A stretch of DNA of 49,326 bases from a virus. Positions 24,357-48,371 of the stretch are shown here, in pieces; position 1 is the stretch's first letter; each line of letters begins with the position of its first letter. Both the position numbers and the translations under genes were made by a program. Under the pieces are notes generated by a model. That model was not told the origin of the DNA. It saw only the letters and a program-made list of their open reading frames with translations, and did no database searches. The DNA lies in IMG/VR virus record IMGVR_UViG_3300025120_000092, positions 1-49,326 of that record, one strand, 5' to 3'.

Positions 24357-25085
24357 ATGATTTCAGAATTACTAACACTTGATCTTCCTAAGTATCAAGT
24401 TGAAATTCCATCTAAGAAGAAAAAAACTTTTCTTAGACCCTTCTTGGTAAAAGAAGAAAAGGTTCTCCTCCAGGCTCAAGAGACCGGAGACGCAGCCTCT
24501 ATTCTCAAAGCTTTAGGAGAAATGATACAATGTTGCGTAGAAAATGTGGGGAATCCATATGAGTTACCACTATTTGATATCGAATATCTGTTTATAAAGT
24601 TAAGAGAAAAGTCTGTTGATGAAACAGTATCTCCTGCTATAATTTGCCCAGAATCAAACGAGAGAATTGAACTTAAAATAAACTTAGCAGATATTGAATT
24701 AAAAACAGAAGATGCACACACCAATAAAATAAAATTAAGTGAAACCGTTGAAGTCCATATGAAATATCCAACTCTGATGGATTATATCGATCTTCAAACA
24801 TTGGATGCAACATCTTCCGAAGTATTATACAAACTTATCGTCAAGTGTATAAACAAAATACAAACTCCAGAAGAACTAATAAGTGATGTCCAATCACTAA
24901 ATGAAACTGAAATAGAAGAGTTTGTAAACTCAATGACAAACTCACAGTTTGAATCTGTATTGAATTTCTTTGCAACTATGCCTAGATTAGAAAAAGAAGT
25001 TTCATATGAAACGAAAGATGGAAAAACCAAGAAAGTGCTGTTTAGAGGATTGTCTGATTTTTTTCTATTGCCCTCAGCCACATAA
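24357..25085 (+). CDS. gp26: baseplate hub chaperone gp26-like (T4_baseplate family), 0-frame product
   Basis: 242 residues. The N-terminus (LPKYQVEIPSKKKKTFLRPF and LVKEEKVLLQAQETGD) and the following FDIEYLFIKLREKSVDE and CPESNERIEL fit the T4 base plate hub family (gp26, a hub assembly factor, not kept in virion as a major part). A Shine-Dalgarno GGAG precedes the ATG. Near the 3' end there is a heptanucleotide T TTT TTT in the right phase for -1 frameshifting, after which the -1 frame is open to 25264. The 0-frame ends 7 codons later with a short tail (LLPSAT). It therefore looks like a chaperone with a frameshifted longer form, analogous to lambda gpG/gpGT. Confidence 0.75.
   Translation: MISELLTLDLPKYQVEIPSKKKKTFLRPFLVKEEKVLLQAQETGDAASILKALGEMIQCCVENVGNPYELPLFDIEYLFIKLREKSVDETVSPAIICPESNERIELKINLADIELKTEDAHTNKIKLSETVEVHMKYPTLMDYIDLQTLDATSSEVLYKLIVKCINKIQTPEELISDVQSLNETEIEEFVNSMTNSQFESVLNFFATMPRLEKEVSYETKDGKTKKVLFRGLSDFFLLPSAT
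25058..25064 (+). other. putative programmed -1 ribosomal frameshift site (T TTT TTT)
   Basis: Seven T in phase T_TTT_TTT (0-frame codons GAT TTT TTT CTA). A -1 slip continues as Ser-Ile-Ala-Leu-Ser-His and stays open for 66 codons. The fused product would be 302 residues. No strong downstream hairpin was seen, so stimulation would have to be weak or from elsewhere. Confidence 0.6.
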
Positions 25086-25120
25086 ATCTTCTCTACCATT
25101 ACAATATAAATTTTCAACTT

Positions 25121-25264
25121 ATGCACAACTTTAATTACACAAGAGGTGATCTGGAAAATTTACTATGTTGGGAAAGAGAGATTTTAGTGTCACAAGTGGG
25201 GGAAGTAATTCGAGCGGAAAATGAAAGACTTGAACAAATGATGGCCAAACAAAGAGGATTCTGA
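25121..25264 (+). CDS. -1 frame extension of gp26-like gene (gp51-like tail), or 47-aa separate gene
   Basis: From the first ATG the open frame gives 47 residues (MHNFNYTRGDLENLLCWERE then acidic/helical C-terminus). The frame is also open upstream, without stops, to the slippery site at 25058, encoding SIALSHINLLYHYNINFQL. That segment looks like coding sequence of the tail-assembly chaperone type ('LSH..L..YY..NF.LM') rather than leader. No Shine-Dalgarno precedes the ATG. A late-promoter-like TATAAATT lies at 25105-25112, 8 nt before the ATG, so an independent leaderless gene is the competing explanation. Most likely it is the C-terminal part of the frameshift product. Confidence 0.6.
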   Translation: MHNFNYTRGDLENLLCWEREILVSQVGEVIRAENERLEQMMAKQRGF

Positions 25265-25267
25265 TAA

Positions 25268-26776
25268 ATGGAAAATCACTTAGACTTTTTTAAAGAAAAA
25301 AAGAAATCTCGTTCGAATCAGGGCGATGGTGTTTTATTATCTGCCATATCAAATCTTAAAAAGGACAGAGTAAAAAAGTCTAATCTGAAAAAGAGTAACA
25401 TCAAAAAGACAAACGTAGCCAACATAGTAGAGGGAGATATATCTGATAATTATGTAATTCCAGATCAACAAACTCCACCTCCTGACTTTTATTCTGGTTC
25501 TGATTATAAAAAAAAAGAAGATCAGGTAACCAAAGAAACCGTAGATAAAAATTACATAACAAAAATAGTAAATGGAATAGTAAATAATAAATTTCATTCT
25601 GTAAAAAGTAATTATGTTGTAAAACAGCCACAGAATATTATTTACAATACGATAAAATCACCAGAGCAAAAGCTGTATAGAATGGATAAAAGAAATTTTA
25701 AAAATTCTCCAGCAGAACAAAAAATTTACAGACTAAATCAAAATAATGTTGTTGTATCACCAGAAGAAATGTTTAATCAGGCTCCACCTGTTAAATCGGT
25801 GAAGAATGGATCAACCAAATCTAATTTTACTAGATTACCAGAACAACGACTAAACACAGCAGAGCAGATATCAAACGAATCTAATTTTACTAGATTACCA
25901 GAACAACGACTAAACACAGCAGAGCAGATATCAAACGAATCTAATTTTACTAGATTACCAGAACAAAATTTAAATGAATTAGATAAAACAAAAGTAGATA
26001 ATCGGCTACAACAAAGTTTTAATTTAATACCAAACGAAACTGTAAAAACGGTCAAAACAGAAACTAATAAAGTCAAAAACTTTATATTAAATAAAAAATC
26101 TGTTATTAACTTTATTGACAATTCGTTTATGGAACCATTAAAAACCACCATGGTAAAAACCATAAACAATTTCAATACATTACCCGGCATGGAACTTGGT
26201 GGCATTGTCAAGACTCCGCAAACAGTTGTGGTTGCGGAAAAGGCTCCAGAAGCTGTCATACCTTTAGAAAAATATAATGAATTGATATCCAAACAAAGCA
26301 TGTTTGATATTGTTTTTAATAAAGATGCAAGAGAAGGTATGTTTAGAGAAGCTATCGAATCATATGCGAATGAAGTTAATATAAGACCAAATATCGAAAA
26401 TAAAAAACCTTTGGGTTTCTTTAAAGCAGAAGGTATAACAGGCGAAAATAAAAAACCAGAAAAACCTGAAATCGTCGATTCACCAAATTCTAATCAAATG
26501 GCAACACCAATTGCGATACAAGAAAAAAACAGAATAAATGATGAAATAAAAGTATCCAACCTCAAATTAGAATCACAAATCCAAGCCCAAGATATTTCTC
26601 GGAATATCGATCCCCAAACCAACCCTCTTCCCAATCCCTCTCTAGGACAAACTCAAGTAGTGGAGCAGGCAAACAGGGAAGCTATAACAGACGAGTCACG
26701 GAACGTTTCCGATCCCGTGACTCGTCTTATTACAAAAAGTTTTGACTCACCTAAGTGGCGTTCTGCACTGTATTAA
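25268..26776 (+). CDS. tape-measure-like or hub protein with internal 20-residue repeats
   Basis: 502 residues, Lys/Asn-rich and mostly disordered-looking. It contains two and a half copies of a 20-residue repeat (SNFTRLPEQRLNTAEQISNE) at about residues 184-233 from a 60-bp DNA repeat. The C-terminal third has GGIVKTPQTVVVAEKAPEAV and IPLEKYNEL at ~310-340, the pattern 'GGI...GEKGPEAVIPL' that closes many tape-measure proteins. In T4 the tape measure gp29 is 590 residues and lies beside hub-assembly genes; this gene directly follows the gp26-like chaperone. It converges with gp32, overlapping its 3' end by 4 nt. Confidence 0.55.
   Translation: MENHLDFFKEKKKSRSNQGDGVLLSAISNLKKDRVKKSNLKKSNIKKTNVANIVEGDISDNYVIPDQQTPPPDFYSGSDYKKKEDQVTKETVDKNYITKIVNGIVNNKFHSVKSNYVVKQPQNIIYNTIKSPEQKLYRMDKRNFKNSPAEQKIYRLNQNNVVVSPEEMFNQAPPVKSVKNGSTKSNFTRLPEQRLNTAEQISNESNFTRLPEQRLNTAEQISNESNFTRLPEQNLNELDKTKVDNRLQQSFNLIPNETVKTVKTETNKVKNFILNKKSVINFIDNSFMEPLKTTMVKTINNFNTLPGMELGGIVKTPQTVVVAEKAPEAVIPLEKYNELISKQSMFDIVFNKDAREGMFREAIESYANEVNIRPNIENKKPLGFFKAEGITGENKKPEKPEIVDSPNSNQMATPIAIQEKNRINDEIKVSNLKLESQIQAQDISRNIDPQTNPLPNPSLGQTQVVEQANREAITDESRNVSDPVTRLITKSFDSPKWRSALY
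25818..25966 (+). repeat. 60-bp in-frame tandem repeat (~2.5 copies)
   Basis: Copies begin at 25818, 25878 and 25938 (partial). They are identical over the shared part apart from the ends, so duplication is recent. The unit is 60 bp (20 codons), which keeps the reading frame. Located within the tape-measure-like gene. Confidence 0.95.
26689..26727. repeat. 13-bp perfect inverted repeat in the 3' end of the coding region
   Basis: AGACGAGTCACGG at 26689-26701 is followed by a 13-nt loop and CCGTGACTCGTCT at 26715-26727. It sits 50-90 bp before the convergent stop codons of the tape-measure-like gene and gp32. There is no T-tract in either direction. It could act as a bidirectional block to transcription or as a 3' stabilising stem; function inferred. 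Confidence 0.7.
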
Positions 26777-48235: not shown

Positions 48236-48288
48236 GCTAGGAGTCCCATGCTAGGAGTCCCATAGGGGTCCCATGCTAGGAGTCCCGT
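48236..48288. repeat. tandem array of a 14-bp unit
   Basis: Unit GCTAGGAGTCCCAT at 48236-48249, 48250-48263 and 48275-48288 (last two bases differ), with an 11-bp truncated unit AGGGGTCCCAT between the second and third. Located in the divergent intergenic region. Confidence 0.9.
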
Positions 48289-48371
48289 GGGGGGGTGTGT
48301 TTTGCCGGGGGTATGGAGCTGATTTTTTACCGCCGCATTTCGCTAAGGGTTTTGGGGTGTGGGACCCCTAT
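48262..48371. repeat. 12-bp inverted repeat pair, 86-bp spacer
   Basis: ATAGGGGTCCCA at 48262-48273 is complementary to TGGGACCCCTAT at 48360-48371. Could form a long-range stem or a pair of binding sites. Confidence 0.75.

Follow-up and report, generated by a model that had tools for sequence, protein, structure and literature searches.

Results

Genes and features of the locus

The window, by which we mean the whole 49,326-nt stretch of viral DNA that was analysed (IMG/VR record IMGVR_UViG_3300025120_000092), encodes a gp32-type protein and T4-like head and tail proteins around the locus under study, with a gene order much as in HTVC008M, C48C1 and DLP6. The locus itself contains the following features.

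24357..25085, plus strand: 0-frame gp26-type gene, short form of a tail assembly chaperone, 242 aa (PF12322, PHROG 150, AlphaFold2 model).
25044..25049, plus strand: AGAGGA, Shine-Dalgarno-like, 8 nt 5' of the heptamer, probable frameshift stimulator (sequence; dominant spacing and codon bias in relatives).
25058..25064, plus strand: T_TTT_TTT slippery heptamer, in the right phase for -1 tandem slippage (sequence; T_TTT_TTN conserved in relatives).
25064..25264, plus strand: -1 frame extension, gp51-type tail of the predicted long form, 66 aa plus stop (PHROG 634; homologous -1 extension in relatives).
25121..25264, plus strand: 47-aa ORF with an ATG start within the extension, not judged an independent gene (no Shine-Dalgarno; begins about 20 codons into a segment conserved as protein).
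25268..26776, plus strand: next gene, 502 aa (own Shine-Dalgarno AGAGGA at 25253-25258, inside the end of the extension).

An initial annotation of this DNA had proposed a programmed -1 frameshift at the end of the gp26-type gene, and the anatomy that it described is present in the sequence. The T run forms an in-phase heptamer of the X_XXY_YYZ type, six sense codons separate it from the TAA of the 0 frame, and the -1 frame is open beyond that stop, running for 66 codons after the slip to the TGA at 25262-25264. The predicted fusion (236+66) is 302 aa long, with ...LSDFF-SIALSH... at its junction; this length, like the 242 and 47 residues given for the short form and the ATG ORF, agrees with the annotation. 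The first ATG of the -1 frame past the slip site is that at 25121 and, as had been claimed, it has no Shine-Dalgarno. In contrast, the gene starting at ATG 25268 has AGAGGA upstream, indicating that this operon does use Shine-Dalgarno signals.

This AT-rich window has no more runs of seven T than chance would give (28 counted versus about 34 expected), so the T run by itself is unremarkable. The case for frameshifting is therefore based on the phase and position of the heptamer and its conservation in relatives, and not on the presence of the run.

The 502-aa ORF downstream matched nothing in PHROG or Pfam. It occupies the place of a putative tape measure or peptidase in relatives, and HTVC008M has at this position a short ORF followed by a putative tape measure. 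A 60-base tandem repeat at 25810-25966 (2.6 copies, 97%) encodes 20-residue repeats within the 502-aa ORF, and another tandem repeat, short and imperfect with the unit GCTAGGAGTCCCAT, lies at 48236-48293.

The two reading frames encode a gp26-type protein and a gp51-type tail

The 0-frame protein belongs to the T4 gp26 family, matching PF12322 with an E-value of 2e-51 and 175 bits (cut-off 24.5), and it matches PHROG 150 (baseplate hub) with an E-value of 2e-55. Searched on its own, the -1 peptide hits PHROG 634, the gp51 family annotated as baseplate hub assembly catalyst, with an E-value of 1e-13. Moreover, the fused sequence matches PHROG 634 without a break over residues 197-299 and PHROG 150 up to position 276 of 282, showing that both families already span the junction. 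Judged by sequence, the locus encodes a short and a long form with a common N-terminal domain, as tail assembly chaperones do.

The AlphaFold2 model of the gp26-type protein has a pLDDT of 90.6, and its residues 1-97 match 2ob9, 3klu and 3fgx, all three named as tail assembly chaperones in PMC9603447. A Foldseek search of the model against the PDB found nothing significant (2ob9 ranked 14th, E 2.5), and a sequence search against solved structures found no credible relative. Re-alignment of the Foldseek candidates with VIA-align gave a Z of 7.9 over 86 residues for 2ob9, the HK97 tail assembly chaperone, followed by 3klu (7.1) and 3fgx (7.0), and then by an unrelated chain at 2.7. Z values of 7-8 may count as middling in fold comparison; here the top three are all chaperones. 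The fold assignment thus comes from VIA-align, as Foldseek alone gave no significant match, and the model points to a chaperone-like fold for the gp26-type protein, shared with that of HK97.

Slip site and frame are conserved beyond the constraint of the protein

We opened 12 annotated relatives (Kyanoviridae, including a Methylophilales phage; Sinorhizobium phiM19; Stenotrophomonas DLP6; Vibrio PG216). Each of them has an in-phase T_TTT_TTC or T_TTT_TTT 0-2 codons before the end of gp26, with the gp51 tail in the -1 frame. Additionally, 80 IMG/VR loci were fetched with an alignment of fused proteins, giving a first set of 97 sequences in all. Both parts were detected in 95 of these, the exceptions being a truncated contig and T4 itself; the 95 take in the window itself and three copies of its virus. 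A second set consisted mostly of loci retrieved from bacterial and archaeal assemblies by gp26 alone, plus nine more isolates. Loci L106-L143 are T4-like phage contigs binned into bacterial or archaeal genome assemblies, probably as contamination; among them are a 188-kb contig filed under Nonlabens xiamenensis and part of a Heimdallarchaeota chromosome record.

The initial annotation had advised looking for relatives that had lost the heptamer or the open -1 frame, and neither has been lost where both parts were detected: the -1 relation and an in-phase T_TTT_TTN were found in 95/95 such loci of the first set and in 44/45 of the second, where L137, with G_TTT_TTT at the end of gp26, is the sole exception. 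The two sets together thus give 139 of 140 loci, which are related by descent and are not independent events, although many are only 25-40% identical in protein.

Codon statistics were computed on 90 distinct loci, that is, the 95 less the copies of the window virus and other duplicates. The base 5' of the Phe pair is T and the first Phe codon is TTT in every one of them. The codon before the run is AGT, TCT, GAT, GCT, AAT, ACT or GGT, so that the residue varies and the T is constant. Elsewhere in these genes, Phe-Phe pairs are usually encoded by TTC TTT, and only 2 of 97 read T_TTT_TTN. The protein therefore does not explain the conservation of the heptamer, and site and frame are conserved among relatives beyond protein constraint. 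Taken together, this comparison strongly supports the frameshift interpretation of the initial annotation.

Homopolymers are error-prone, and the apparent frameshift might stem from an indel introduced into the T run during sequencing or assembly. A single-sequence scan of viral contigs retrieved only copies of the same virus; the same T7 is present in two other contigs from different metagenomes, one of them with 3 substitutions elsewhere, which makes an indel unlikely. The same -1 arrangement also recurs in cultured phages and across the 140 loci, and we regard the probability of such an error as negligible.

The tail is poorly explained as an independent gene

The tail could instead be a small gene of its own (gp51), started at 25121 or by reinitiation past the gp26 stop. 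In every opened relative with an annotated tail, GenBank has it as a CDS apart from gp26, with a start of its own, and the late-promoter-like TATAAATT is present at 25105. However, the first start codon of the tail lacks a Shine-Dalgarno in all 90 distinct loci; such a signal, together with an independent start, had been named by the initial annotation as a feature to look for in homologues, and its absence favours frameshifting. Roughly one locus in three has its first start 18-33 codons into the conserved tail, whereas protein conservation is unbroken from the FF of the slip site onward, including the residues before the first start, and the in-phase heptamer is fixed among relatives. We consider an independent gene very unlikely; an additional internal product may be made from the tail.

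A late promoter at 25105, offered by the initial annotation as an alternative, was not retained. TATAAATT exists there, yet it occurs twice in the window versus 4.2 expected, and the late-promoter octamer TATAAATA occurs three times versus 3.0 expected, frequencies at or below chance.

A Shine-Dalgarno-like element lies upstream of the slip site

The AGAGGA at 25044-25049 in the window has counterparts in most relatives, with GAGG, GGAG or AGGA no more than 24 nt 5' of the heptamer in 67 of the 90 distinct loci. The spacing is mostly 8-11 nt, with a peak at 10 nt, and resembles that of the internal Shine-Dalgarno that stimulates -1 frameshifting in E. coli dnaX. Codon choice supports the element as well. 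The Glu codon five codons 5' of the two Phe codons is GAG in 48/66 cases (73%) versus 672/2226 (30%) elsewhere (p 3e-12, ignoring kinship among loci), and Gly GGG is enriched in the codon just after that position. Together, these two biases produce the GAGG/GGAG/AGGA motif. From the sequence and this pattern, AGAGGA is a probable frameshift stimulator in the window.

The strict codon phase and the upstream element fit ribosomal slippage. Transcriptional slippage on the T run would also yield a -1 product, and RNA polymerase can slip on homopolymers such as this run, with its 7 T in the window and in some relatives. In 73 of the 90 distinct loci, however, it consists of six T followed by C, which is short for transcriptional slippage, and we judge this origin highly improbable.

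Downstream structure is confined to some relatives. In the window, no stem was predicted downstream (MFE about 0 over 50 nt). RNAalifold over 89 sequences found no universal structure downstream of the heptamer, and a systematic pair scan of relatives found no shared helix. Some relatives have a strong, clade-specific stem that begins 5 nt past the heptamer, in at least two topologies and with compensatory changes. The two stem groups are L005, L037, L058, L062, L086 and L090, and L047, L054, L069, L073 and L092; their covariation counts lean towards structure but are indicative only, since the groups were picked for pairing. Given a window without a stem and 23 of the 90 distinct loci without strict Shine-Dalgarno-like tetramers, stimulators are not universal.

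Discussion

Proposed mechanism

Taken together, the sequence evidence makes it very probable that a conserved programmed -1 frameshift produces the long form of a tail assembly chaperone in this T4-like marine virus. We infer from the comparison that the slip occurs, and with an efficiency that would leave the short form the major product. The majority of ribosomes would translate gp26 to its stop and release the short form of 242 aa. A minority would move back one base at T_TTT_TTT while holding tRNA-Phe in both the P and A sites, probably aided by pairing of the AGAGGA 8 nt upstream with the 16S anti-Shine-Dalgarno. The slipped ribosomes would read 66 further codons, yielding a long form of 302 aa in which the tail is the counterpart of the T4 gp51 C-terminus. 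If lambda gpG/gpGT is a guide, both forms may act together on the hub or the tape measure while the tail is being assembled, and be gone before it is complete.

Relation to known systems

Cyanophages and other Kyanoviridae, HTVC008M, Melnitz-3, phiM19, DLP6 and PG216 share with the window the gene order, the heptamer, the -1 frame and the tail motif. The window differs in that T_TTT_TTT stands six codons before the stop, whereas Kyanoviridae-type relatives usually have T_TTT_TTC one codon before it; it is less than 40% identical to the isolate relatives, and it belongs to the loci in which no downstream stem was found.

The locus also resembles the lambda gpG/gpGT class in its short form and its predicted long form made by a -1 frameshift, encoded ahead of a presumed tape measure gene. 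The lambda slip site is G_GGA_AAG, unlike the T_TTT_TTT of the window. For lambda gpG/gpGT and the tail assembly chaperone class, PMC8785237 cites Xu, Hendrix and Duda 2004. Vandenendeviridae and Andersonviridae (PMC12846349) likewise end the short form with a poly-T slippery site and have an open -1 frame, but their motif is GTTTTT and they are different phage families. The same paper cites Vladimirov et al. 2022 for T4-like phages with poly-T slippery sites; according to a passage of PMC10274946, citing the same work, some T4-like phages have a short gene and a fused long gene instead of frameshifting. Frameshifting of chaperone genes has thus been cited before, poly-T sites of T4-like phages included, and the mechanism is known in kind.

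T4 and the evolution of the two forms

The initial annotation was correct in describing T4 with separate gp26 and gp51, and we can add that gp51 is a full-length paralogue of the fused product. T4 gp26 aligns with the part of the profile before the junction (hhalign P 98%, 201 columns) and is homologous to the short form of the window. T4 gp51, which carries PF12322, aligns with the fused profile over 226 columns (gp51 residues 14 to 243), through the junction, and is homologous to the fused long form. Because gp51 aligns across the junction, T4 appears to have one gene for the short form and another for the long form. It differs from the window in that this second gene is full-length, separate and located on the strand opposite to gene 26; T4 gp26 ends in ...GLKEFFELL with TTC TTT, and the slippery heptamer is absent. 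RB49 has the same gene arrangement as T4. Both T4 proteins are listed as hub assembly chaperones in PMC3004832. Cyanophage gp51 has about 20% of the length of other gp51 proteins and is similar to them at the C-terminus (PMC3037559), a remark that fits our reading of the gp51 tail as the end of the long form.

A further arrangement is seen in Vibrio phage D509 (L101, 3650-3690), where gp26 ends in CTT TTC AAG TAATGG, with no heptamer and with an ATG overlapping the stop. The tail of D509 may be made by reinitiation instead of frameshifting. We hypothesize, with about even chances of being right, that the poly-T frameshift is ancestral in the T4 superfamily, with a bipartite signal (GAGG plus T_TTT_TTN) and stems that arose independently in clades, that the T4 group duplicated the gene to give gp26 and gp51, and that the D509 group may use the stop-start overlap.

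Implications

No joined CDS was present at this locus in the 20 annotated phage records that we opened, T4 and RB49 aside, and public annotation still splits or omits the long product. Our analysis indicates that the small 'gp51' genes in the opened cyanophage records are mis-annotated halves of a frameshift product. Moreover, the loci provide a set of natural frameshift signals from many hosts, in which the trade-off between slip site, Shine-Dalgarno element and downstream structure can be followed. For T4 itself, the comparison supports a simple answer on gp51, namely that it is the long form of a tail assembly chaperone.
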